This document shows positions 38,642 to 56,971 of a stretch of 64,000 nt of DNA, in pieces. The DNA lies in contig JAAFJM010000002.1 of NCBI GenBank assembly GCA_013298895.1, forward strand, positions 217,314-281,313, read 5' to 3'. The position numbers and the translations under genes were made by a program. Numbering within the stretch: position 1 is the first letter of the stretch; each line of letters starts with the position of its first letter. The notes beneath the pieces were generated by a model. It worked only from the letters and a program-made list of their open reading frames with translations. It ran no database searches and had not been told where the DNA came from. Source of the stretch: Bacteroidota bacterium. Lineage in GTDB: Bacteria; Bacteroidota; Bacteroidia; UKL13-3.

Positions 38642-39129
38642 TGTTTTTTTAGTGTTAAAGTGTTTATGTAGCTTTTGTTTATGAGTAAAATTGACCGTTT
38701 TGAAGATTTAGATTGCTGGAAGAAATCAAGAGAGTTGGTGAATTTAATCTTTGATATTTGCGAAAATCAAATGAAAAACAAAGATTTTTCTACTCAAGAC
38801 CAAATAAAACGAGCAGCTTTATCTACGATGAACAATATTGCAGAAGGATTTGGAAGATATAGTAATAAAGAGTTTATTCGTTTTTTGGAGTATTCAGCTG
38901 CTTCTTCAATGGAAATCAGAAGTATGTTGTATATTTTATCTGACAGAAAATACATTGATGAAATTGAATTTGAAAAATGTTATCAACTAACAAATGATCT
39001 TACCAATACTACTTTAGGCTTGATTAGGTATTTAAAGACATAAATTTAACTAGAAGAACTAAGAAAACAAAACTTTGAACTTAAAAACTTAAACACTTAT
39101 AACATAAAGACTTTAACACTCATAAAACA
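38642..39129. mobile_element. Candidate small cassette: four-helix-bundle gene between imperfect inverted repeats
   Basis: Left arm 38642..38670 TGTTTTTTTAGTGTTAAAGTGTTTATGTA; right arm 39101..39129 AACATAAAGACTTTAACACTCATAAAACA; 25/29 complementary; encloses the S23-like ORF. Confidence 0.4.
38681..39043 (+). CDS. Four-helix-bundle protein (S23 ribosomal / 23S IVS-associated, Avd-like)
   Basis: FEDLDCWKKSRELVNLIFDICENQ...SLSTMNNIAEGFGRYSNKEFIRFLEYSAASSMEIRSMLYI; ATG at 38681. Confidence 0.88.
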   Translation: MSKIDRFEDLDCWKKSRELVNLIFDICENQMKNKDFSTQDQIKRAALSTMNNIAEGFGRYSNKEFIRFLEYSAASSMEIRSMLYILSDRKYIDEIEFEKCYQLTNDLTNTTLGLIRYLKT

Positions 39130-40287
39130 ATGGCATTTTACCACAAACAAGGACAAGTACCCGCTAAAAGACATACACAATTTAGAAAGCCTGATGGCTC
39201 ACTTTATTCAGAAGAATTGGTTTCAACCGAAGGTTTTAGTAGTTTATACTCTTTGGTTTACCATTGCCATCCGCCTACTTTGGTTAAGGAAATTGGTGAG
39301 GCATACGATATTGGGCCTAAGGCTGCCATTGAAAAAAATTTACAAAACCGTAGTTTTTTAACTTTTAAAACCGCACCTGTTGACGATTATTTAAAAAGTC
39401 GTGTTTATACGCTTTTTAACAACGATGTTTATTTGGCTTCGGCTGCGCCTCGCAAAAGCATGACAGATTATTTTTTCAAGAATGCGGATGCTGATGAAGT
39501 ATTATTTATTCATGAAGGAAATGGTGTTTTAAAAACAGTTTATGGACAAATTTCATTTGAATATGGCGATTATTTGGTAATTCCTCGAGGTACCATTTAC
39601 CAATTGCATTTTAAAACTGAGCAAAACAGGATTTTTATTACTGAATCATTTTCTCCAATCCGTCCACCAAAACGTTATTTAAACCAATATGGACAATTAT
39701 TAGAGCACTCGCCTTATTGCGAACGCGATATAAAATTACCTGAACTAAATGAGACCTTTGATGAAAAAGGTGACTTTAAGGTTTTAATTAAAAAACAAGA
39801 TATGATTTTCCCATACACTTATGCCACACATCCTTTTGATGCCATAGGTTGGGATGGATTTCAGTATCCTTTTGGGTTTAGTATTCATAATTATGAGCCA
39901 ATAACAGGTCGTGTGCACATGCCACCACCTATTCATCAAACTTTTGAAGGACACAATTTTGTAATTTGTTCGTTTGTACCTCGTTTATACGATTACCATC
40001 CGCTATCAATTCCTGCGCCTTATAACCATAGCAATGTAGATAGCGATGAAGTTTTATATTATGTTGATGGCGATTTTATGAGCCGCAAGCATGTAGAACG
40101 TGGTATGATAAGTTTACATCCAAAAGGTATTCCGCATGGTCCACATCCAGGAACGGTTGAAAAATCGATTGGTAAATTAGAAACCAAAGAATTAGCCGTA
40201 ATGATAGATCCATTTTATCCGTTAAAAATTACTGAAGCTGCTATGCAAATGGAAGACCCTGGTTATTATAAAACTTGGGTAGAGTAA
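39130..40287 (+). CDS. hmgA: Homogentisate 1,2-dioxygenase
   Basis: 385 aa; DEVLFIHEGNGVLKTVYGQISFEYGDYLVIPRGTIYQL; HPKGIPHGPHPG. Confidence 0.88.
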   Translation: MAFYHKQGQVPAKRHTQFRKPDGSLYSEELVSTEGFSSLYSLVYHCHPPTLVKEIGEAYDIGPKAAIEKNLQNRSFLTFKTAPVDDYLKSRVYTLFNNDVYLASAAPRKSMTDYFFKNADADEVLFIHEGNGVLKTVYGQISFEYGDYLVIPRGTIYQLHFKTEQNRIFITESFSPIRPPKRYLNQYGQLLEHSPYCERDIKLPELNETFDEKGDFKVLIKKQDMIFPYTYATHPFDAIGWDGFQYPFGFSIHNYEPITGRVHMPPPIHQTFEGHNFVICSFVPRLYDYHPLSIPAPYNHSNVDSDEVLYYVDGDFMSRKHVERGMISLHPKGIPHGPHPGTVEKSIGKLETKELAVMIDPFYPLKITEAAMQMEDPGYYKTWVE

Positions 40288-40376: not shown

Positions 40377-40745
40377 TTGCAAGCAAAATTATTCATACTG
40401 AGAGATATAAAAGAAATTATATCCGTTTCGAAAGACAAAGCCATTAGGGCTGTTGACAATGAGCGGGTGTTAATGTATTGGAGTATTGGTAAGCGTATTT
40501 TAGAAGAAGAACAAGACGGAAAAGAAAGAGCGGTTTATGGAGAGTATTTAATTAAAACTCTAGCGGAACAATTAGAACCTGAATATGGAAGTGGATTTTC
40601 TATTAGACAATTAGAACTATGTAGACAATTTTATCGAACTTTACCAATTACGAACGCACCGCGTTCGCAATTCAGTAGGACACATTACCGCTATAATATT
40701 CTTTTTAATACTGAATATATTATAAAACCAAATACTTTTGTATAA
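40377..40745 (+). pseudogene. Truncated DUF1016/YhcG-type N-terminal domain
   Basis: AVDNERVLMYWSIGKRILEEEQDGKERAVYGEYLIKTLAEQLEPEYGSGFSIRQLELCRQFYRTLP...RSQFSRTHYR then divergent tail and stop; C-terminal nuclease domain missing. Confidence 0.75.
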
Positions 40746-41432: not shown

Positions 41433-42560
41433 ATGAATACCGAACAAACAACAGAAATGTTACCTCAAACATCAGATTTCCTACCCTTACACGGAACTGA
41501 TTTTATTGAATTATATGTGGGAAATGCCAAGCAAGCAGCCCATTTTTACAAAACAGCTTTTGGGTTTCAAAGCTTGGCTTATGCTGGTCCTGAAACTGGT
41601 GTAAAAGATAGAGTAAGTTATGTATTGATACAAAACAAAATGCGCTTAATGCTTACTACGCCTTTGCATTCTGATTCGCCAATTGCAGAGCACCATAAAA
41701 AACATGGTGATGGTGTTAAAGTATTAGCTTTGATGGTAAATGATGCTTACGATGCATTTGAACAAACTACCAAACGCGGTGGAGTAGCTAGTTTAGAACC
41801 AAAAACTTTAACTGATGCCAATGGAGAAGTGCGCATGAGTGGTATTAAAACTTATGGCGAAGTGGAACATTGGTTCATTGAACGTAAAAACTACAATGGT
41901 GTGTTTATGCCCGGTTTTGTTAAGTGGGAAAGCGCTTATAATCCGGAGCCAACAGGCTTATTATATGTTGACCATTGCGTAGGAAATGTAGATTGGAATC
42001 AAATGAATCCGTGGGTGAGTTTCTACGAAAATGTAATGGGTTTTAAAAATATCCTTTCGTTTGATGATAACGACATCAGTACTGAATACTCTGCTTTAAT
42101 GAGTAAAGTAATGAGCAATGGAAATGGCTATGTTAAATTCCCGATTAACGAGCCTGCGGAAGGTAAAAAGAAAAGCCAAGTAGAAGAATACTTGGAGTTT
42201 TACGAAGGTGAAGGTGTTCAGCATATTGCCATTGCTACACTAGACATTGTTTCGACTGTAAAACAATTAATGGCTCGTGGTGTGGAGTTTTTAAAGGTAC
42301 CAAGTAGCTACTACGATGATTTATTAGACCGTGTTGGTCCAATAGAAGAAGATATTGAACCATTAAAAGAGTTAGGTATTTTAGTAGATAGAGATGATGA
42401 AGGATATTTATTACAATTATTTACCAAACCAGTTGAAGACAGACCAACTATGTTCTTCGAAATTATTCAACGTAAAGGTGCTAAAAGTTTTGGAAAAGGA
42501 AACTTTAAAGCCTTATTTGAAGCCATAGAACGCGAACAAGCAAATAGAGGTAACTTATAA
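41433..42560 (+). CDS. hppD: 4-hydroxyphenylpyruvate dioxygenase
   Basis: 375 aa; VDHCVGNVDW...EYLEFYEGEGVQHIAIATLDI...FFEIIQRKGAKSFGKGNFKALFEAIEREQ. Confidence 0.93.
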   Translation: MNTEQTTEMLPQTSDFLPLHGTDFIELYVGNAKQAAHFYKTAFGFQSLAYAGPETGVKDRVSYVLIQNKMRLMLTTPLHSDSPIAEHHKKHGDGVKVLALMVNDAYDAFEQTTKRGGVASLEPKTLTDANGEVRMSGIKTYGEVEHWFIERKNYNGVFMPGFVKWESAYNPEPTGLLYVDHCVGNVDWNQMNPWVSFYENVMGFKNILSFDDNDISTEYSALMSKVMSNGNGYVKFPINEPAEGKKKSQVEEYLEFYEGEGVQHIAIATLDIVSTVKQLMARGVEFLKVPSSYYDDLLDRVGPIEEDIEPLKELGILVDRDDEGYLLQLFTKPVEDRPTMFFEIIQRKGAKSFGKGNFKALFEAIEREQANRGNL

Positions 42561-44116: not shown

Positions 44117-44184
44117 TTTGCAAGTTTTTCAAAATTGCTAACTTTTTGAACTAAGTATTGCTACTCGCCCCTTCAAATTTTGTG

Positions 44185-44273
44185 CGGTGAGAGAGAGATT
44201 CGAACTCTCGATACACTTTGACGCGTATGTCGGTTTAGCAAACCGGTGGTTTCAGCCGCTCACCCATCTCACC
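44185..44273 (-). tRNA. tRNA-Ser (anticodon GCT), CCA not encoded
   Basis: Minus strand GGTGAGATGGGTGAGCGGCTGAAACCACCGGTTTGCTAAACCG...GAGAGTTCGAATCTCTCTCTCACCG with long variable arm. Confidence 0.93.
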
Positions 44274-44509
44274 AAATGCTCTTTTAAAGGGAGTGCAAAT
44301 GTAGCAAACAAAACTATATTTCAAAATATTTTAGAGAATATTTTTATATTTATTTTTCAATAGTAAAAATTGGATTTAAGTGTACAAAATAAAGCAATTG
44401 AATATTAATGTATTAAGGTAAGTATTCTGTAAAATTTAATATTACTTATTTTTGAATAATAATATGCAATTAAAATGTTCGTTAATTAGCAAAAAAATAA
44501 ACTATAGTC

Positions 44510-47116
44510 ATGGCTAAGGATAAAGTTGTTCATTATAAATTTCGCGATTTAAAAATATTTGGTAGTACTGAATGGCTTGCGAACAATGAAAAGAAATATA
44601 GGCAAGTGTACGACATGACGGAGTGCACATTTATTTACTGTGAACTTTCGTTTTTTAATAAATTATTTGACGAAAAACAGTGGGATTTAAAAATTAGTTT
44701 AAAGTGTGTAAAGCAAGAAGACGGTGCTGAAGTATGTACCTTATCAGCTGATAGAACCATAAAAAAAGACGAAAATATTGTTTATATCCGAGAAGGTTGG
44801 GGTGTAAAAACTCCTGGCACTTATTGGAAAAAAGGTACATATCGTTGGGAGGCTTGGATTGATGGTGTTTTTATTGCTGAAAAAGAGTTTTATATTGTAG
44901 ATGTTGGTTTGGTTACTGAAACCGAAAATCCTTATTTTAATATCAAATCCAATAAATTGTATGAAGGAACTGAAATTAATGTTCCAAAAGTTGAACGCAA
45001 TTATTTAAGTGCTTTCGATACCAAAGAAACAAGATATGTTTGGCTAGAAATGATGGCCGAAAATTTGGTAACTACTGGTGAAAAATGGCCATGTGAATTG
45101 ATATTTAATTTTAAAACACGTTCAGGTCAATTGAAAGGAACAATTGAAAAAATATTTTTTGTTGATTCAGCTGAACCTGAATTTGAGTGTAGTATTGGTT
45201 GGGGAAATGATGTAAAAGGTACATGGGGTTTAGATTATTATACCATTGAAATAATTTTTATGGATCAATTGGTGGCTAGTATTTTATTTGATGTAGGCAC
45301 CGAATTTTTAATTGAACCAAAGGTTAAAGAAATAAAACCAAAAGTAAATAAACTTATTGAAAAGAATGCACCCGTTGCGACTGCTCCCGAAAATATTGAA
45401 GATATAATGAAGGAGCTTGATAGTTTAATTGGGCTTGATTCAATAAAAAAGAAAGTTAAAGAATATACTACTTACCTTAATTTTTTAAAAATTAGAAAAG
45501 AAAAAGGCTTTGACGATTCTGAAAAAATTAACTTACATGCAGTTTTTACAGGAAATCCAGGGACTGGAAAAACTACCGTTGCCAAAATGCTAGGAAAAAT
45601 TTACAACCAACTTGGTTTGTTAAGTAAAGGCCATGTTATTGAGGCTGATAGAAGTGATTTAGTAGCAGAATATATTGGACAAACTGCACCTAAAACCAAA
45701 GAAATTATCAAACGTGCAAAAGGTGGAATTTTATTCATAGATGAAGCCTATGCATTAGCTCGTAAAAACGATGATAGCAAAGATTTTGGTAAAGAAGCCA
45801 TTGAAATTTTACTAAAGGAAATGAGTGATGGGGATGGGGATATAGCCATTATTGCTGCTGGATACCCTGATGAAATGAATAATTTTTTAGAAAGTAATCC
45901 AGGTATGCGAAGTAGGTTTCAAATGTTTTACGATTTTCCAGATTATTTACCAAAAGAGTTATTAGCAATTGCTGATTACTCAACCCAAAAACGTGGTATA
46001 AAATTTAACGAAGCATCAAAAGAATTGATTTTTAAAAAATTGGTTGATGCTTACCGCGATAGAGACCGTATGTTTGGAAATGCTCGTTATGTAAATAATT
46101 TAATTGACGAATGTAAAATGAATATGGGTTTACGATTAATGCAATCGCCTAATCCTTATGATTTGAGCAATGATGTACTAAGTACTATTGAAACTGTAGA
46201 TATTGATAAAGTTTTTGGAATTAAACATAAATCAATTACCGATATTCCAATTGATGAAGAATTGCTAACTGCTTCACTAAATGCATTGCACGGTTTAATT
46301 GGTTTACAAACAGTTAAAACCGAAATTGATGAATTGGTTAAATTGGTTCGTTTTTACCGAGAAATTGGTAAAGATGTTCGTCAGTCGTTTTCGTTACATA
46401 CAGTATTTACTGGAAATCCAGGTACAGGGAAAACCACTGTTGCACGTATTTTAGCTCAAATTTATAAAGCATTAGGCATTTTAGAACGTGGTAATTTGGT
46501 AGAATGCGATAGGCAAGATTTAGTAGGAGGTTTTGTGGGGCAAACTGCGTTAAAAACCACTGAAGTGCTTAACAAAGCAATGGGTGGCGTTTTATTTATT
46601 GATGAAGCTTATGCTCTAAGCGAAGGCGGAGAAAACGATTTTGGTAAAGAAGCTGTTGAAACCATTTTGAAAAAAATGGAAGATTCGAGAGGTGACTTTA
46701 TTGTAATTGTAGCTGGTTATACCGATAATATGAAACGCTTTTTAGAAAGCAATCCTGGTCTTAAGAGCAGGTTTGACCGCGAAATGCAGTTTGAAGATTA
46801 CGATGCACCACAGTTACACGATATTGCATTGAAAATGCTTTTAAATAACGGCATTAAACCTACTGAAGAAGCTTCAAACCATATTAAACAGTATTGCGAA
46901 TTTTTATACAAAACCCGTAATAAGTTTTTTGGAAATGCACGTAGCGTAAGGAAAGTAATAGAAGAAGCTATTAAAAACCAACATTTGCGTTTGGCAAAAA
47001 CCGAAACTGAAAAACGTACCAAAGAAATGATTTACGAATTGGTACTTGAAGATGTAGAGGAATTTAAAGTTGATCCTAACTTTACAGAGGAGCGTAAAAC
47101 TATTGGATTTAAATAA
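44510..47116 (+). CDS. Tandem CbxX/CfxQ (SpoVK-type) AAA+ ATPase with duplicated beta-rich N-terminal domain
   Basis: Two Walker A (FTGNPGTGKTTVAKMLG; FTGNPGTGKTTVARILA), two Walker B (GGILFIDEAYAL; GGVLFIDEAYAL), two SNPGMRSRF/SNPGLKSRF motifs; N-terminal repeat units aa ~41-133 and ~176-263. Confidence 0.9.
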   Translation: MAKDKVVHYKFRDLKIFGSTEWLANNEKKYRQVYDMTECTFIYCELSFFNKLFDEKQWDLKISLKCVKQEDGAEVCTLSADRTIKKDENIVYIREGWGVKTPGTYWKKGTYRWEAWIDGVFIAEKEFYIVDVGLVTETENPYFNIKSNKLYEGTEINVPKVERNYLSAFDTKETRYVWLEMMAENLVTTGEKWPCELIFNFKTRSGQLKGTIEKIFFVDSAEPEFECSIGWGNDVKGTWGLDYYTIEIIFMDQLVASILFDVGTEFLIEPKVKEIKPKVNKLIEKNAPVATAPENIEDIMKELDSLIGLDSIKKKVKEYTTYLNFLKIRKEKGFDDSEKINLHAVFTGNPGTGKTTVAKMLGKIYNQLGLLSKGHVIEADRSDLVAEYIGQTAPKTKEIIKRAKGGILFIDEAYALARKNDDSKDFGKEAIEILLKEMSDGDGDIAIIAAGYPDEMNNFLESNPGMRSRFQMFYDFPDYLPKELLAIADYSTQKRGIKFNEASKELIFKKLVDAYRDRDRMFGNARYVNNLIDECKMNMGLRLMQSPNPYDLSNDVLSTIETVDIDKVFGIKHKSITDIPIDEELLTASLNALHGLIGLQTVKTEIDELVKLVRFYREIGKDVRQSFSLHTVFTGNPGTGKTTVARILAQIYKALGILERGNLVECDRQDLVGGFVGQTALKTTEVLNKAMGGVLFIDEAYALSEGGENDFGKEAVETILKKMEDSRGDFIVIVAGYTDNMKRFLESNPGLKSRFDREMQFEDYDAPQLHDIALKMLLNNGIKPTEEASNHIKQYCEFLYKTRNKFFGNARSVRKVIEEAIKNQHLRLAKTETEKRTKEMIYELVLEDVEEFKVDPNFTEERKTIGFK

Positions 47117-47181: not shown

Positions 47182-47574
47182 TTATATAAAAGTGTTTATA
47201 TAATTTGCAATCTTTTGCATTTCATGATTACTTAAAGTGATTTTTTTATTTGAAAAATTCATATCGTTTACCTCATTTATTGGAATCAAATGAATGTGTG
47301 TGTGTGGCACTTCTAATCCAATAACAGTTACTCCAATCCTATTACATGTAATAGCCTTTTTCATAGCTATTGCTACTGACTTGGCAAATAAATTAAGTTG
47401 AATGAACGTTTCATCATCCAAATCAAAAATATAATCAACTTGTACTTTGGGAATAACCAAAACATGACCTTTTGCAAGTGGGTTTATATCTAAAAAAGCC
47501 AAAAAAGAGTCATTTTCCGCTACCTTATAACAAGGAATTTGCCCAGCTACTATTTTAGAAAATATACTTTCCAT
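47182..47574 (-). CDS. HIT family protein
   Basis: MESIFSKIVAGQIPCYKVAENDSFLAFLDINPLAKGHVLVIPK...HTHIHLIP; start adjusted inward from the listed ORF. Confidence 0.9.
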   Translation of the reverse strand: MESIFSKIVAGQIPCYKVAENDSFLAFLDINPLAKGHVLVIPKVQVDYIFDLDDETFIQLNLFAKSVAIAMKKAITCNRIGVTVIGLEVPHTHIHLIPINEVNDMNFSNKKITLSNHEMQKIANYINTFI

Positions 47575-47581
47575 ACAATCA

Positions 47582-48082
47582 CTAACTAAAAGAAATGGAT
47601 AATATTTCCAATTTAATTGTTCCTGCAGGAGCCGCAATTTCTGCTAATTCTCCTACCTTTTTTCCTATTAAACCAGCACCAATTGGTGATTTTACAGATA
47701 TTTTTCCAATTTTAAAATCTGCCTCATTTTCAGAAACAATAATATAAGTAAATTCTTTTTTAACATTATGATTCAATACAAGTACTTTACTAAGCAACAT
47801 AACTTTACTATTATCTAGTTTAGTTTCGTCTATAATTCTACTAATTGCTAAAAGTGATTCGACTTGAGAAATTTTAGTTTCTAAATGTCCTTGATCCTCC
47901 TTGGCAGCGTGATATTCAGCATTTTCACTTAAATCACCTTTATCTCTTGCATCAGCAATTTGTTTTGAAATGAATGGACGTTGAACAAACTTTAAATCGT
48001 GAAGTTCTTTTTGCAATTTTTCGAAACCATCTTTCGATAAATAATTTAAAGCCGGAGTTGCCGACAATGTTTTTTTGGCCAT
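47582..48082 (-). CDS. greA: Transcription elongation factor GreA
   Basis: YLSKDGFEKLQKELHDLKFVQRPFISKQIADARDKGDLSENAEYHAAKEDQGHLETKI. Confidence 0.94.
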   Translation of the reverse strand: MAKKTLSATPALNYLSKDGFEKLQKELHDLKFVQRPFISKQIADARDKGDLSENAEYHAAKEDQGHLETKISQVESLLAISRIIDETKLDNSKVMLLSKVLVLNHNVKKEFTYIIVSENEADFKIGKISVKSPIGAGLIGKKVGELAEIAAPAGTIKLEILSISFS

Positions 48083-48173: not shown

Positions 48174-49271
48174 TTAATTGTTATTTCCCAATGCAAGTTT
48201 GAAGCCAATGCTATGGATACCATTAAAGATAACTGTTGGCTGGTAAGCATAATCAATTGATAAAGCAGTTCCAGCATCGCTAATAGGCAAGTTAAAACCA
48301 ACACCAAAACTTAAACCATACTGAGGAGTTCTGTAATCTGATGTACTGAAATTACCTTCTTGGTGAGCATAGGCTGTACGTAACATGAACATGTTTTTAA
48401 ATGCATATTCTGTTCCTAATGAAATAATATTAGATGAAAAAGCATTGTAATTAAAATTACCATTAACCGTTAATTTATGGTCGTAGCTTTCCTCATTTTG
48501 ATCTAATCTAAAATCGTAGGCTGCACCAATATTGGCTAGGGCAGGCATATTGAAAGGTTGTGATCCAAATAATGTTTTGCGAGTAGCTCCTGTTGAAGTT
48601 ACTGTAGTATTTGCTGTTAAACCAGTACCTTGGTATGCAAAATCTGGTCCTAAATTACGAACAGCAATTCCAAATCTAAAGTCTTGCTTTTTAATTTTTT
48701 TAGCGGCATTCAAAGAGGTTTGGTATTGAACACCTGCATCTAATGTAATTCCACTTGCATTTACACTAGATGTACCTTCACTAATATATCTAACCAACAA
48801 ACCACCCGTAATTGAATTTGAAAATGTTTTTGAATAAGCTAAACCCATATTCAAAATTTGAGTAGTATAGGTACCTAAAGTCATATCAGGTGCTTCAGTT
48901 GTAGTAATTGGAATGCTTCCAATATCCCAATAACTTAACGCCAAACCAAGTACACCACCGCTTCCATTTTCACCTAATGCTTGTGCAATACCAAAATTAT
49001 TCAGATACATATCAGTACCTACCAAATAGCGTGTTTGAGATGCTTGGATTTCCATTTTCTTAACATAGGCCAATCCCCCAATATTTAAATAATATGATTC
49101 TAAACCACGCGCAGATGCGGTATTTGAACCTCCTAAACCTACACCTCTAACATAAGGATTTACTAATAGTTGAGTTGCCCCAGCTCCACCAGCCCTATCT
49201 GGGTTACCTGCATTAGCAGTAGCCAACAATCCGAAACAGGCTACCAAACTTTGTAAAATATACTTCTTCAT
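48174..49271 (-). CDS. PorV/PorQ family outer-membrane protein
   Basis: 365 aa; AGGAGATQLLVNPYVRGVGLGGSNTASARGLESYYLNIGGLAYVKKMEIQASQTRYLVG; beta-barrel C-terminus. Confidence 0.8.
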   Translation of the reverse strand: MKKYILQSLVACFGLLATANAGNPDRAGGAGATQLLVNPYVRGVGLGGSNTASARGLESYYLNIGGLAYVKKMEIQASQTRYLVGTDMYLNNFGIAQALGENGSGGVLGLALSYWDIGSIPITTTEAPDMTLGTYTTQILNMGLAYSKTFSNSITGGLLVRYISEGTSSVNASGITLDAGVQYQTSLNAAKKIKKQDFRFGIAVRNLGPDFAYQGTGLTANTTVTSTGATRKTLFGSQPFNMPALANIGAAYDFRLDQNEESYDHKLTVNGNFNYNAFSSNIISLGTEYAFKNMFMLRTAYAHQEGNFSTSDYRTPQYGLSFGVGFNLPISDAGTALSIDYAYQPTVIFNGIHSIGFKLALGNNN

Positions 49272-49301
49272 ACGAGTAATTTATTTTATTATGATTTATT
49301 A

Positions 49302-49332
49302 AATGTACCTTCAAAACAAATGAAGGTACATT
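49302..49332 (-). other. Intercistronic stem-loop between T9SS cargo gene and PorV-like gene
   Basis: AATGTACCTTC AAAACAAAT GAAGGTACATT; 11-bp perfect stem without poly-U tract on minus strand. Confidence 0.5.
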
Positions 49333-49343
49333 ATATTATTTTT

Positions 49344-52300
49344 TTAGAATGAATCGAAATCTGCTGGACGCATTACACCAAACCATTTTATAATTCTTTC
49401 ACCGATTCCTGGTGCTTCAATATGAATTAAATATACACCACTTGAAATAGGAACATTGGCATCATTACGTAAATCCCATTCGATGTAAGTTTTTGAATCA
49501 TCATCTTTAGGAATTCTTCTTACTAAGAACCCACTTTGTGTATAAATAGAAACAATACATTTCTTAGGTGTGTTAATTATTTTAACTTTATTATCCAATG
49601 CATTTCCTGGATCTTCATAACCACTGTAAGCATAATATGGATTTGGTGATACGTTAACCATATCCATTGCCTTATTTGCAGCTTTACTATTATTTATCTT
49701 AGGGGCTATACTACTGGTATTGAACTCGTATAAAGGCTGACCACCGTTAACTAAAGGTGTATCAACATTAGCAGTAAATTTAGCATAAGGACGCTTTACA
49801 CGAATTCTTACTGTTGCTTCATTAGGAACCAAACCATCAGCCATGCTAAGTAAATTAGAAGTTTGATTAATAACTGGAATTGTAACCCACATAAACTGTG
49901 ATAAGAAATAACGTTTTTGTAATGTAGCTGGCTCATCAGAAGGAGTAGCAACATTTAACAAAGTTTTATAGGTAGCACCTTCATCATATCTTGGACCTCT
50001 GAACAATACATTATTACCAACTTTAAGTTCTTTAGCACCCATAATATAAACATGATGTTTACCACCGAAGGCAGGAATGTTTCCATTTGAATTTCTATCA
50101 AACCAATTTTTTGTAGGATTCCAAATCATATCATTACCATTTTCATCAGGTAACGATGAATCTTCACCAAAACAAATATTTAATCTTTCGCCTGTTTCAA
50201 CATTGATTGCATATCCAGGAAACCAACTTAATCCAAAACTACCAGATTCCGGTTTACCATTTTTATCAACTGAAGCAGAAGCCCTTATATTTCCTTTTGA
50301 AACATTTCCAATATTTTGCTCTTTATTTTCCCCCATTTCTAAAACGATACAACGAGTCCATTTAGACTTATCATTTGTAAAAACTACATCTACACCTTGT
50401 AAAGATGATAATGGATTGTCTTCAGATACCTGATTAGTATTTGGTGTTAGGCTAATACCAGGTCCATAAGAAGCTTGCACTGATCCATTTTTAACAGCTT
50501 TGGCACATAATTCAAAAGGAGCCCAAGTGGCACCAATCATATTACTATATTGTTTTCTAGGATCAATTGCAACTTTACTACCACTGATTGACCTAAAGAA
50601 ATCATGCTCATTTAAGTTTGTGAATTCTGGTGTTCCTGTATTTCCTGACCTAATCCAGTTAAAAGAAGGTAAAGCTACAGATCCATCTGGTACGCCAGAT
50701 AACCAAGGATTGGTTGCATCAGAAAAAGTCAATGTTGCATTTACAAATCCGTTACTTAAATCAGAATTATTATTTGGATCTCCAGGAGCTGCTACTTGAT
50801 TAACACTAACAGAAAGACCCAAATCTTCAAAAATTTGCTCATTTTCTACCTCTAAATTTCTCTTTCCAAGGTATTTTAATCCAGTTTCAGTATTTATAAT
50901 GTACCATTTTGAGGTACTTCTAGCTAAAGAATCAGTAATTTTTGTGTTTACCGATGAATCATTAATAAACAACCTGAAATTAGCCAAAGGTACTTTAAAA
51001 GGATTAATTACTTTAATTGTAACAGGTCCTTGTCCTTCTATGTATTTTGGTTTTCTAGAGTAATATGGTGCAGATAATGCTTCTTCAATGGTTTGTTTAG
51101 ATAAATTTATAAAATTACCTGCATTACCAATTCCTTCAATTTTGGTTAATGCTGGACCACTTGAAAAATCAGAATTTAATTCAGTGCCTTGCTGATGTCC
51201 ATATGGTAAATGAGGGGTAGCTGAGATAATTACTGGTTTAGAACCTGCTAAATATTGTAATGCTTCTTGTGGACAATTACCAACTGCAGCATAAGGAATA
51301 ATTAAATAATGATAATTTTTGTAATTAACCAAAGTTTGATCAGACTCCACTGAGAACAAATCTTTAGTAATTTGGAAGGAGTGACGTACACCTTTATCTT
51401 CACCACTAACCATTATTTTTTTAACATTACCCAAATCAGCATCATTTACTGTATTTACAATAAAACCTATACCATCTTGAATATCACACTGAGCTACTAA
51501 TCTAATTTGATCTCTATCAGAAAAATCACTAGGAGTAGCTGGCACTTTTAATTGAAAAATTTGATACCCTTGAAATTTATATTGAGTAGAATCAGCGCAT
51601 AATCCAGCTACTTTAGCAGAAAAAGATTCTGGCTTATCAGGATTCACAATACTAAGAATTAGCTCTCTGTTCAATTCAGTAATTTTTACTGAATTGTCTT
51701 CAAATTCTGGTCCTCTAAGTATTTTAAAATTATTTTTAAATAATACAGTAGCTTTATCACTTGCTTCTTTTAGTAAATTAAATGAACCAGTAGCACCACC
51801 TGTTGTAGCACGTGCCCAAACTACACCTATAGTAACCCTATTTACAGCACCTGGTAATAACTTAAAAGAACCTGCTGTTTGTAGAAAGCGTCTATCTGCT
51901 GGTGTGTTTCCTGATGTTCTTTCTGTCCATAATGCTCTTCCTGCAGGATCAGTTGCTCCCGGAAACATATAACTTGCAGTATCAGAACCTCCTCTACCAT
52001 TGCCTCCGTATGTAATATTTTGTCCATCTTTCCAACGACCATTTAAATAATTCCAAAAATGAGATGGAAGACTTGGATTACCTTGTTGAGATTGATTATT
52101 ATCGTAATAAACAAATTTTGTTAAACCAATTTGTTTACCTTTTTCATCTAATGGCCCTTCAAAAAAGTTAACACCTACACTAGGTGGATTTAATCCATAA
52201 CCTAATATACCTTCATCATTATCATCACCATTATAACAAATACCTAAATTACGCTTAACATCACATTCTACATAATCATCCGAATAATTACCTAAATCTG

Positions 52301-53186
52301 CATCTACCCATTGTCCAAATACACAACTATCAATTGCATCCGTTCCGCGGTTAATGATTGTTGTTCTATAAAAAGTCATGTTATTAACCTCATCATTGGT
52401 AGCAAAACCAAATGCTTGCAAACGGAACTCTAAATTCAATGGTAATCCTTGGGTTTCTGAATGTATGTTTCCTTTGTCGTTATAACAAATAAACATCATT
52501 TGATCTGGTATAGAAGCCAAGCCGTTTTCACCTTGATTGAAAGTAGGATAATCTCCATCATCAGAGCTATAGTTAAAATCGTTATTTGCATCGAAGAAAG
52601 GTGCTAAAAATTTAGCTTCACCTACACCCCCATTACCTGGCCAAGTTGCTATATCAGCAGACGCTGTACCTCCATTTTGAAAATTAGCAATTTCTGAGCG
52701 TGTAACGGTCCAAACTTTATCAAATTCTTTACATCTAGCGGCCGAAATTGCTGCAGACCCGTCAATTTGCAAAGGACCTGGAAAAAAATCGTTACCCGTT
52801 TGACGATACGTTTGAGCAGCCAAGCGCAAGTTACCTTGTGTAATACCACCAATCCATAATGCACCTGAGAATAATGAATTTTTGGCAACTTGACCAGTTT
52901 GCACCTTTGGAATCTCATAACGAGCATTACTTAAATTCCACCACATATCACCACCATTTAAAATAATAGTTCTTACGTTATTAATGGAAAGTTCTTTTTG
53001 TGCTGTTGCAGGAGCACAACCTGCACCCATTTTTGACAATGGGTTAGATTTTATATTTGGTAAAACATTAGAGGAATTCCCTCCAGATTTGCCTAAACCA
53101 ATATTTTCGCGGGCTTGTAAGCTTAAACCTAATCCTAAAGCACTTAATACGAGTGTTGCTGTTTTTATATTTTTAAAGTTTAACAT
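49344..53186 (-). CDS. Large T9SS type A-like sorting-domain secreted protein
   Basis: 1280 aa; C-term VKIINTPKKCIVSIYTQSGFLVRRIPKDDDSKTYIEWDLRNDANVPISSGVYLIHIEAPGIGERIIKWFGVMRP. Confidence 0.8.
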   Translation of the reverse strand: MLNFKNIKTATLVLSALGLGLSLQARENIGLGKSGGNSSNVLPNIKSNPLSKMGAGCAPATAQKELSINNVRTIILNGGDMWWNLSNARYEIPKVQTGQVAKNSLFSGALWIGGITQGNLRLAAQTYRQTGNDFFPGPLQIDGSAAISAARCKEFDKVWTVTRSEIANFQNGGTASADIATWPGNGGVGEAKFLAPFFDANNDFNYSSDDGDYPTFNQGENGLASIPDQMMFICYNDKGNIHSETQGLPLNLEFRLQAFGFATNDEVNNMTFYRTTIINRGTDAIDSCVFGQWVDADLGNYSDDYVECDVKRNLGICYNGDDNDEGILGYGLNPPSVGVNFFEGPLDEKGKQIGLTKFVYYDNNQSQQGNPSLPSHFWNYLNGRWKDGQNITYGGNGRGGSDTASYMFPGATDPAGRALWTERTSGNTPADRRFLQTAGSFKLLPGAVNRVTIGVVWARATTGGATGSFNLLKEASDKATVLFKNNFKILRGPEFEDNSVKITELNRELILSIVNPDKPESFSAKVAGLCADSTQYKFQGYQIFQLKVPATPSDFSDRDQIRLVAQCDIQDGIGFIVNTVNDADLGNVKKIMVSGEDKGVRHSFQITKDLFSVESDQTLVNYKNYHYLIIPYAAVGNCPQEALQYLAGSKPVIISATPHLPYGHQQGTELNSDFSSGPALTKIEGIGNAGNFINLSKQTIEEALSAPYYSRKPKYIEGQGPVTIKVINPFKVPLANFRLFINDSSVNTKITDSLARSTSKWYIINTETGLKYLGKRNLEVENEQIFEDLGLSVSVNQVAAPGDPNNNSDLSNGFVNATLTFSDATNPWLSGVPDGSVALPSFNWIRSGNTGTPEFTNLNEHDFFRSISGSKVAIDPRKQYSNMIGATWAPFELCAKAVKNGSVQASYGPGISLTPNTNQVSEDNPLSSLQGVDVVFTNDKSKWTRCIVLEMGENKEQNIGNVSKGNIRASASVDKNGKPESGSFGLSWFPGYAINVETGERLNICFGEDSSLPDENGNDMIWNPTKNWFDRNSNGNIPAFGGKHHVYIMGAKELKVGNNVLFRGPRYDEGATYKTLLNVATPSDEPATLQKRYFLSQFMWVTIPVINQTSNLLSMADGLVPNEATVRIRVKRPYAKFTANVDTPLVNGGQPLYEFNTSSIAPKINNSKAANKAMDMVNVSPNPYYAYSGYEDPGNALDNKVKIINTPKKCIVSIYTQSGFLVRRIPKDDDSKTYIEWDLRNDANVPISSGVYLIHIEAPGIGERIIKWFGVMRPADFDSF

Positions 53187-53203
53187 AAAATTATTTTTAA
53201 TAA

Positions 53204-56200
53204 TTAAAACTGAACTGATACTCCAATACGAGTTAAACGCGGTAATAAAAATCTATCCGGGTTAACCATCCTTGTATTATATAAGTCAACAAATGATTGT
53301 GCATTGGTTGCAGTTCTAATTTGATCTGCAGCAAATGGCGATGATAAGTATCCATCATTGTATGCACTACCTGTATATCTAAATACTCCTGTAACATTAG
53401 CAGCATTTAATAAATTGGTCATGGTAAAGAAAACACGCATTCTGTATTCTTTAACTCTTGCTCCTGCACGCTCATTTTTTATGGTAAAATTCTTATCAAT
53501 ATTTAAATCAACGTTAAATTGTGCGGGTAAATTAGCTCCATTTGGGGTTCCTTTAATTGGACTTCTAGTAGCTGCACCACTTTGAACTCCTGAAGGAGTT
53601 GATATTAAATCTTGAGTAAAAGGACGACCTGAAAAAGCAGAGAAAATAAAGTTAAATCCTGCATTCTCTAAAATTTTCTTACCTGCTACAATAGGACCAT
53701 CATATTTTTTACCTTCCTTGTAGTGAAAATCAAAATTTGTTTTAAATGTATGGCGTGTGTCAAAATCTAAAGGAAAAATTGTTCTAGTATTTGGCAATCC
53801 TGCCTGGATTAAAGCTGTACTAGAGGCTACATTAGATCCTGTACCATCAGCAAATTGCAATTGGTAATTGGCATCTACATTTATATTACCCATATCAATT
53901 AACTTATATTCTAAACCAACTGATTTAACTGTTGAGAAATCAATATTACCTACCGTTGTATAGGTATTTGGCCAAGCTTGAATATAGCTAAATAATTGGG
54001 TCATATTTCTATTTTCACGATAAGAAGCAATAATTCCAACTGCTGAGTTTTTTCCAATTTGCTGACGGAAACCTATTTCATAATCAGTAACAGAGGTCAT
54101 TTTCAAATCTGGATTGGCAATTGTACCTGTTAATCTGTTTGATAAGTAAAAATAATCATCAATTTGTGCCACGTTACTACTTGGTCTCTGAGTTAAAATA
54201 TCATAGGTACCATAGAACTGTGAAGAAGTGCTAATAGGAAACGAGAACCATACACGAGGTAAAATTTTTACATCTGGTACATAATCTTTAAATGATTCTG
54301 CTGTAGGCGTTTTTGGATTTTTAGCATCAACTACATAAGGAATATTTTGGCTAGTTCCTGCAGCACGTTGAATAGCCGCTGGATCAGAAATTGGGTTACC
54401 ATTTTTATCATACCATTTGTTTCCATCTCTATAACCTGCCACACCATATGATGATGTTGAACTAAAATTATCTGTATTGATATATACTTTCCAATTATCC
54501 TTAACAATATCTGGAATTGCATCAGCTTTCATATTGGCTAAATTTCCCTGACGAACTTCACCTGCTGTATAAATTGGAACCATTGAATAAGGGTCGCGCA
54601 ATACCAATTGATTTGCATCAAAACGTTCAACACGAACACCAACTCTTAAAATTAAATCTTTAAATTGGAATTTATCTTGAATCCAAGCTGCCGCATAAAC
54701 AGGTTGGTATGCTGGTAAAATTCTGTTTTTGAAAAATTCATTGATACCTGGTTTACCTGTAACAACATTTCCTAAGTGATCGTATCCAAAATAACCAATA
54801 TAAGAATTACCATTATTCAATAATTCATTGGCAGAAAACATATTTAAATTATATGTTCCTGGTGAATAAGAATTTACATCCAAGAATGTTTGATCAGTAA
54901 TAGCATTTCCATTATTATCAGTAGCACCTTGACTAATTAATTTAGCTCTTAAATTTTTATCGAACTCTGATTGGTCAGCAGCTACAATTCTACGGTTAAA
55001 AGTAATAGTATCTTGAAAAACACCATTTGCGTCAAATTTAGCAGTTCCAATAGAGTCAAGACCCGAAAACTGACGATTTGCTAATAGTGGCATTAACTGC
55101 CATAAATTTCCTGCTGATAAATTATAACTACGTTGGAAACGCTGTTCATAAGTTAAACCAAATTGTAAATTGTGTTTAGCCTTTAAATTTCTTCTAGGTG
55201 CTACTGTTGCATTTGATTCTAGGTAAACAATATAGTTTTCATATAAGTTCTTTGAATAACCTGTTTGAATATCGGCCAAATTACCCCACATTCCAGAATA
55301 GATTGATATAGGATCATCACCATTACCTAAAGCTCCTAAGCCCCTAAGTGGCGAGAAATTATTAAAATTATTTGCACCGTAATAATTTAGAAACGCTTGT
55401 GTATAATTACCTCTTAAAGTATTAAAATCTGCTTTTTGAAAGCGGAAAGCAGTATCTCTAAAACCTGTTTGACGAGTATAACCTGTTAAAAACATTTTTC
55501 TACCATCTTGTAGTGTAATTGTATCAGCAGGTTGTCCGAAAGTTTTCCTAACAGTAGTATAATTAGGTGCATTATAAGTTTTAAAGCTACCTACATATCC
55601 ATATTTAAATAAATCTTCTCCATGATTGGCATCAAAAGTTTCACTTGAATTACGCTCATAACTAACACGAACAGTATAATAGGCATCCGAAATTTTTACT
55701 CCTTTTGTTATTGCGGCTTCTAATCTTGCTTTGGCAGTATCCTCTTTTTTATTGAACATTTGGGTAAACTGCAAATAAACTAATCCTCTATATCCTTGAG
55801 TAACTGAATTGTTGGTAGAATTTAATAATGAATAATAACTACTCCAATTGTTTTGTGAGAAGAACTGTGCTTGGTAACCCAATTTAAAGTTCATATTATT
55901 ACTAGGTTGATAATTAAAATTACCACTTGTATTGATATTATATGCTGCCACATTCTGGCGATAATCTACTTTTTCTAAATCACCTTTTGTCAAAAACTCC
56001 GCAGCAGGAACCAAAGTACCTAAAGCATTAGGACGCACTGGAGTTGCTTCCAATTCTTTCATTTTAGCATCTTTAACCTTGAAAACATCCACAGCTGGCA
56101 ATCCTGGATCCAAAGAATAAAAACCTCTAACTGAATTAGTAAAGCCAATTAATACTTTTTCTCTTTCCCTGTTTCCTTTGTCTTTTAACATAATTGGACC

Positions 56201-56971
56201 AGAAACGAAAGTAGTAAATTCATTGGTATGTGAATTATCTAAATAACCGTAGAAAGGAGAGGCAGTTCTGAATTCCATAAAACGAACCCAATTTTTAGTT
56301 GGAGCTTTTGTAGTAGCACTGATAGCACCACCCGTAAAATCTCCATAAGAAGCAGGAGTTCCACCTGTAATTACTTCTAAATTTTCAATTGCATTAGCAG
56401 GAATATTGATTCCTGTTACACGCACTCCATCAATGTAATAAGCAGTATTTTCAGCACGAGAACCACGAATATTTGGAGCCCCTCCACCTCTAGAATCAAC
56501 ACCACGGGAAATACCTGCAATTGCATTTAAGTTTTGTGTCCCTTGCTTATTTATGTTTTTAAAATTATTTTGATTTGGATCGTCTTTGTCAATCAATTGT
56601 ACCTTATCTCTAACCACAAGTGTTCCCAAAGTATTGGCACTACTTTGACTCAAAGAAATTGTTCTTGAGGTAATTTTGTTGTCACCTTTTACAGGAACAT
56701 CCTCTAGTTTTGCTTTTTGATAACCCGTAAATGAAACGGTAATATCATAATTACCTGATGGAATTGCTGTAAACTCAAACTCACCATCCTTATCGGTTGT
56801 TTTGGATTTTCTGATTCCTCCACCACCTTCAATGGTTACAACCGCGAAATCTATCGGCTTCTTGGTAACTCCGTCAATTACTTTACCATCTAAAACTCCC
56901 AGATTTGATTGGGCAGTAGCAATGGCAGAAAGGCCTATTAAGGCCGCTAATAATAAATATATCCTTCTCAT
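53204..56971 (-). CDS. TonB-dependent receptor with carboxypeptidase-like regulatory domain
   Basis: 1255 aa; NLGVLDGKVIDGVTKKPIDFAVVTIEGG; plug GTQNLNAIAGISRGVDSRGGGAPNIRGSRAENTAYYIDGVRV; C-term RLTRIGVSVQF. Confidence 0.9.
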   Translation of the reverse strand: MRRIYLLLAALIGLSAIATAQSNLGVLDGKVIDGVTKKPIDFAVVTIEGGGGIRKSKTTDKDGEFEFTAIPSGNYDITVSFTGYQKAKLEDVPVKGDNKITSRTISLSQSSANTLGTLVVRDKVQLIDKDDPNQNNFKNINKQGTQNLNAIAGISRGVDSRGGGAPNIRGSRAENTAYYIDGVRVTGINIPANAIENLEVITGGTPASYGDFTGGAISATTKAPTKNWVRFMEFRTASPFYGYLDNSHTNEFTTFVSGPIMLKDKGNREREKVLIGFTNSVRGFYSLDPGLPAVDVFKVKDAKMKELEATPVRPNALGTLVPAAEFLTKGDLEKVDYRQNVAAYNINTSGNFNYQPSNNMNFKLGYQAQFFSQNNWSSYYSLLNSTNNSVTQGYRGLVYLQFTQMFNKKEDTAKARLEAAITKGVKISDAYYTVRVSYERNSSETFDANHGEDLFKYGYVGSFKTYNAPNYTTVRKTFGQPADTITLQDGRKMFLTGYTRQTGFRDTAFRFQKADFNTLRGNYTQAFLNYYGANNFNNFSPLRGLGALGNGDDPISIYSGMWGNLADIQTGYSKNLYENYIVYLESNATVAPRRNLKAKHNLQFGLTYEQRFQRSYNLSAGNLWQLMPLLANRQFSGLDSIGTAKFDANGVFQDTITFNRRIVAADQSEFDKNLRAKLISQGATDNNGNAITDQTFLDVNSYSPGTYNLNMFSANELLNNGNSYIGYFGYDHLGNVVTGKPGINEFFKNRILPAYQPVYAAAWIQDKFQFKDLILRVGVRVERFDANQLVLRDPYSMVPIYTAGEVRQGNLANMKADAIPDIVKDNWKVYINTDNFSSTSSYGVAGYRDGNKWYDKNGNPISDPAAIQRAAGTSQNIPYVVDAKNPKTPTAESFKDYVPDVKILPRVWFSFPISTSSQFYGTYDILTQRPSSNVAQIDDYFYLSNRLTGTIANPDLKMTSVTDYEIGFRQQIGKNSAVGIIASYRENRNMTQLFSYIQAWPNTYTTVGNIDFSTVKSVGLEYKLIDMGNINVDANYQLQFADGTGSNVASSTALIQAGLPNTRTIFPLDFDTRHTFKTNFDFHYKEGKKYDGPIVAGKKILENAGFNFIFSAFSGRPFTQDLISTPSGVQSGAATRSPIKGTPNGANLPAQFNVDLNIDKNFTIKNERAGARVKEYRMRVFFTMTNLLNAANVTGVFRYTGSAYNDGYLSSPFAADQIRTATNAQSFVDLYNTRMVNPDRFLLPRLTRIGVSVQF

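Follow-up and report, generated by a model that had tools for sequence, protein, structure and literature searches.

A tandem AAA+ protein with a paired Ig/FnIII-like N-terminal domain is core to one order of Bacteroidota

We identified, in a genome of the Bacteroidota order UKL13-3, a gene for an 868-aa protein that joins a motor of a known kind, two AAA+ modules of the SpoVK-CbbX-EccA clade, to a paired N-terminal domain that is absent from the libraries searched. The gene lies in the window, that is, the whole 64,000-nucleotide stretch of DNA that was analyzed (Table 1), and is core to its order while being patchy in other Bacteroidota. As nearly every relative in the order retains this single gene, the protein is probably a dedicated protein-remodeling chaperone. 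The explanation that we favor, with moderate confidence, is that of a soluble, cytosolic, two-ring (type II) AAA+ remodeling ATPase whose paired beta domains dock a client or an adaptor.

Table 1. Positions, in the window, of the AAA+ gene, its parts and its immediate neighbors
Feature	Position	Strand	Basis or remark
868-aa AAA+ protein gene	44510..47116	+	ORF (ATG at 44510, ends at 47116 with the stop included) and orthologs
Beta unit 1, residues 9-133, Ig/FnIII-like sandwich (predicted)	44534..44908	+	Profile alignment, AlphaFold
Beta unit 2, residues 142-264, same predicted fold	44933..45301	+	Profile alignment, AlphaFold
Linker, residues 265-295	45302..45394	+	Mostly low confidence in the model, poorly conserved (0.19)
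AAA+ module 1 with lid, residues 296-568	45395..46213	+	Pfam, CbbX/EccA1 alignment, motifs
AAA+ module 2 with lid, residues 585-853	46262..47068	+	Pfam, CbbX/EccA1 alignment, motifs
tRNA-Ser(GCT), upstream of the AAA+ gene	44184..44273	-	Opposite strand
HIT-like gene, convergent with the AAA+ gene	47182..47637	-	Named by eye from sequence

The original prediction described a doubly duplicated protein, with two beta-rich domains followed by two AAA+ motors, and this organization was borne out by profiles, the structural model, and Pfam. Two AAA and two AAA_lid_6 stretches were detected above the Pfam cut-off, and modules 1 and 2 match each other with an E-value of 6e-85 (43% identity). Each aligns over nearly its full length with CbbX (E about 1e-60 for module 1 and 1e-54 for module 2), and EccA1 also aligns with each. 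The Walker A motifs begin at residues 348 and 635, the Walker B glutamates are E412 and E699, and the arginine fingers are R469 and R754. The sensor-1 GY pairs (G451-Y452 and G736-Y737) and the sensor-2 arginines, or second arginine fingers (R526 and R811), are invariant among orthologs, as are N463 and N748, which by our count lie six residues ahead of R469 and R754. With the ATPase motifs invariant or nearly so throughout the orthologs, both modules look ATPase-competent, in agreement with what had been proposed from their complete motifs. The pore-loop aromatics, Y388 in module 1 and F675 in module 2, align with residue 114 of CbbX (3syk), its pore-loop tyrosine. CbbX threads the tail of its client by means of this tyrosine, and replacing it with alanine preserves the ATPase activity and abolishes activation (PMC5437159).

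The N-terminal region had been put forward as a tandem repeat of about 265 residues of a kind that was not recognized. The repeat stood, with its boundary moved so that it ends at about residue 264, and no characterized domain matched the region by sequence: residues 1-297 have no Pfam model, and no convincing match was obtained in Pfam, NCBIfam, the PDB by sequence, or PHROGs. A literature search of partial coverage likewise returned no paper on this beta domain. Although units 1 and 2 share only 17% sequence identity, their self-alignment, suggested earlier as a check, supported the repeat: the profile-profile alignment spans 121 of 140 columns with an E-value of 7.2e-10, while the best of twenty column-shuffled controls gave 0.025 over short stretches. 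In a single-sequence Smith-Waterman alignment the units scored 57, where shuffled sequences averaged 30 (sd 5) and 2 of 500 scored at least as high. In an AlphaFold model made with 30 orthologs, the region is predicted to form two eight-strand sandwiches (mean pLDDT 84.7), with strands starting at residues 10, 33, 41, 58, 74, 90, 109, and 120 in unit 1 and at 143, 165, 176, 192, 208, 224, 242, and 253 in unit 2. The predicted strands thus follow the same order with a near-constant offset. In these comparisons of sequence and strand order, neither of the outcomes that the original prediction had named as refuting was seen. Both the profiles and the model indicate that the two units are true repeats.

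The predicted fold of the beta unit is Ig/FnIII-like. A Foldseek search of the PDB with the beta pair returned Ig/FnIII-like proteins, the first being RbmA (E 8e-9, prob 1.0), with a low TM-score of 0.30 over the pair that may reflect a different angle between the domains. Only further Ig/FnIII-like matches were found in a viral fold library. Unit 1, which carries an invariant loop, NKLFDE..W, at residues 50-58, is better conserved (mean pairwise identity 0.67) than unit 2 (0.52); its conservation nearly equals that of the AAA modules, while the linker varies freely. The full-length AlphaFold model has a low pTM of 0.46 and is uninformative on where the beta pair sits relative to the ring.

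In the genome collection, the window's order corresponds to one family with 64 genomes, of which 60 encode the beta unit; it is present in 44 of the 45 good genomes and in all 14 genera, and three of the four genomes lacking it are 65-68% complete. A related complete genome, that of Bacteroidetes bacterium UKL13-3 (L040), has 71% identity, and more than 30 full-length orthologs were collected. Across a sample of Bacteroidota, 45 of 396 genomes encode the unit when any architecture is counted. Retention this close to universal suggests that the protein has a housekeeping role in the order. The gene looks like a stand-alone transcription unit, because the upstream tRNA genes lie on the other strand, with no close co-directional partner, and the downstream HIT-like gene is convergent. 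The search for a Bacteroidota-type promoter yielded only a -7-like TATTTTTG at 44447, for which no promoter role is claimed. No signal peptide is visible by eye at the N-terminus of the protein.

The neighborhoods of the orthologs were searched for a conserved partner, a check that the original prediction had called for, and no neighbor of the window type recurred across independent lineages. Two candidates, a two-component pair and an amidophosphoribosyltransferase-like gene, were rejected, as they recur among near relatives only. Some other genes of the window were noted by eye. Three consecutive genes at 48174-56971 encode a PorV-like protein, a 1280-aa protein whose C-terminal domain resembles a sorting domain, and a protein similar to TonB-dependent receptors; this cluster, which reads like type IX secretion cargo, is not conserved beside the AAA+ gene. 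A 122-aa ORF at 40377-40745, between a homogentisate dioxygenase-like gene (39130-40287) and a 4-hydroxyphenylpyruvate dioxygenase-like gene (41433-42560), is similar to an N-terminal piece of a DUF1016-type nuclease and is possibly a remnant. Another 122-aa protein, encoded at 38675-39043 and away from any rRNA seen, resembles the four-helix-bundle family of 23S rRNA intervening sequences.

The analysis went beyond the original prediction in showing that the gene is core to one order, that tandem AAA modules are common in the SpoVK-CbbX-EccA clade, where many relatives have them, and that the beta unit is found outside the window protein. Indeed, the unit, of about 122 aa, is a mobile, unnamed domain, and its profile (best match among 780 reversed ORFs, E 0.18) detected it in several architectures besides the window type, which has two beta units and two AAA modules. 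L116 encodes both units with a single AAA module, so that two rings appear dispensable in some cases. A 278-aa protein (L114:7526-8359) contains only two beta units after a signal-peptide-like start, as judged by eye, and similar proteins are encoded by L097 and L194; a 644-aa protein of L115 also has two units and, by eye, a signal-peptide-like start. Two single-unit proteins were found in one genome (L191 and L192). The two domain matches in L105 and L106 were set aside as chance, since by reading they look like a glycoside-hydrolase protein. In a tree of the units that was midpoint-rooted and has one weakly supported group, the two units of L114 group together, as do the two of L115, and both pairs fall outside the window type. 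This suggests that the tandem duplication took place repeatedly and independently, which in turn suggests that the unit works in pairs; homogenization within a gene may also explain the pattern.

A further architecture, the TPR type, has a single beta unit, flanked by TPR-like repeats on one side and by up to three AAA modules, usually three, on the other. A tree built from the AAA modules places the first modules of the window and TPR types together (support 0.90), and likewise their second modules (support 1.0); the third TPR-type module is separate. The AAA duplication therefore predates the split, and by this tree the two types descend from one two-module ancestor. Later modules in some proteins of the TPR group (L109:8332-12174 and L113:8204-10495) have no recognizable Walker A or B motif, and some motors of the group thus appear to carry inactive AAA modules. 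Of 42 TPR-type loci, which include L080, L112, L113, L161, L164, L166, L168, and L170, 22 have genes for an ABC ATPase and an ABC_tran_2 permease immediately downstream, in most cases no more than 60 bases away, and 6 have groEL upstream in the same orientation, either adjacent or at a distance of one gene. These counts are not independent, since some loci are apparently from one genome sampled twice and many others are related. In the window genome, groEL is on a different contig from the AAA+ gene, and the TPR-type ABC permease had no match with a query for which there was no positive control.

In the two-ring remodeling ATPase that we favor, the motifs and the repeat come from the sequence and the model, and we infer the hexamer, the threading, the docking, and the client. 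By homology, six subunits would form a double ring, above which the paired beta domains, on flexible linkers, would dock one particular client or adaptor. Pore loops powered by ATP could then draw a tail or a loop of this client into the channel, much as CbbX does with the C-terminus of Rubisco, and the outcome for the client would be activation, assembly, or disassembly rather than degradation. In favor of this reading are the complete ATPase motifs and pore-loop aromatics, the conservation of unit 1 beside a freely varying linker, the lack of a visible signal peptide, the retention within the order, and the apparent repeated pairing of the unit in other proteins; against it stand L116 with its single AAA module, the lack of a conserved neighbor, and the low pTM of the full-length model. 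Client recognition, as originally suggested, is the most likely role of the beta repeats, and it fits published work on the clade (PMC10659427).

The free linker, which suggests a mobile arm, and the presence of the unit in proteins with no AAA module, which shows that it is more than an AAA-assembly device, make it rather unlikely that the beta pair is instead an assembly or regulatory element that holds or gates the hexamer while clients meet the ring surface directly, in the way that the top surface of CbbX engages Rubisco. Such an arrangement would agree with the similar conservation of unit 1 and the AAA modules, as expected of an intramolecular contact, and with the fact that CbbX works with no beta domain (PMC5385338). 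We consider it distinctly improbable that the pair binds a carbohydrate or an envelope precursor, with the motor remodeling an envelope-synthesis enzyme or complex in the cytosol. Ig folds are ubiquitous, the likeness to RbmA is one of fold only, and no envelope gene is among the conserved neighbors of the window type, all of which count against this possibility. What speaks for it is that RbmA, the closest solved fold, is a polysaccharide binder (PMC5605196), that MurG is a client of SpoVK and mycolate enzymes are connected with EccA1 (PMC10659427), and that some stand-alone copies of the unit have a signal peptide by eye. An anti-phage defense ATPase, suggested by weak IetA-type matches in PADLOC and NCBIfam, is very improbable, as these matches fall in the AAA core, the NCBIfam score of 61 is far below its cut-off of 510, the gene is core to the order and not patchy within it, and no defense partner was recognized nearby by reading.

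Characterized members of the clade each serve a narrow client (Rubisco, MurG, or type VII substrates). A member that is strictly retained and carries a new paired domain at its N-terminus hints at a chaperone-client pair yet to be discovered, an idea that its well-defined domain boundaries make testable. A broader proposal, speculative and unlikely as a whole, would be that the 122-aa unit is a general protein-docking module, used by cytosolic AAA+ chaperones and by apparently exported proteins, and that the beta-AAA-AAA family is a dedicated chaperone system of the phylum, which in one branch cooperates with GroEL and an ABC-2-like exporter and in the window's order has turned into a stand-alone, possibly essential remodeler.

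The scores of the window protein exceed the cut-offs for SpoVK (TIGR02881; 551 against 423) and CbbX (TIGR02880; 484 against 459) with two modules summed, and fall below that for EccA (TIGR03922; 429 against 467) even so; the automatic label "stage V sporulation protein K", which can come from such sums, is misleading here. SpoVK is reported to occur in sporulating Firmicutes only (PMC10659427), whereas the orthologs of the window protein are in Bacteroidota. CbbX, the red-type Rubisco activase (PDB 3syk, 3zuh), shares the near-full-length alignment and the position of the pore-loop aromatic; it differs in having a single AAA module and, at its N-terminus, a short helical extension, and it goes with a red-type Rubisco whose operon includes cbbX. 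As stated originally, there is no Rubisco context here: RuBisCO_large had no match in the window genome, with the control matching in 5 genomes.

The TPR type shares the beta unit and the related modules 1 and 2. It differs in that the protein, of about 1200-1370 aa, has TPRs at its N-terminus, a single beta unit where the window type has two, and a third AAA module, and in that its gene clusters with ABC genes and sometimes groESL. RbmA, a biofilm scaffold of Vibrio cholerae, shares two tandem beta sandwiches (tandem FnIII) and is, in contrast, an extracellular matrix protein with no motor; by sequence profile it did not match the beta units at E up to 5. DUF3859 (PF12975) aligned with almost the whole unit in the relative L115 (E 0.0022; 18.4 against a gathering cut-off of 24) and had no match in the window protein itself; DUF3859 members were found in 0 of 198 genomes of the phylum, in a search in which the controls also had no match, and none were found among plasmids.

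Characterized clade members are dedicated chaperones, with no protease partners, whose variable N-terminal domains are thought to recruit the substrate, and SpoVK lacking its N-terminus shows reduced MurG binding (PMC10659427). The N-terminal domains named in the text of that paper are TPRs, a beta-helix, a beta-prism, and an RNA helicase domain, and the beta-prism, mentioned for some CbbX-like proteins, may refer to the present group. The window protein shares with the SpoVK-CbbX-EccA clade the AAA and AAA_lid_6 domains, the sensor-1 GY, the sensor-2 arginine, the pore-loop aromatic, and a variable N-terminal domain, and differs in that this domain is a predicted Ig/FnIII-like pair.
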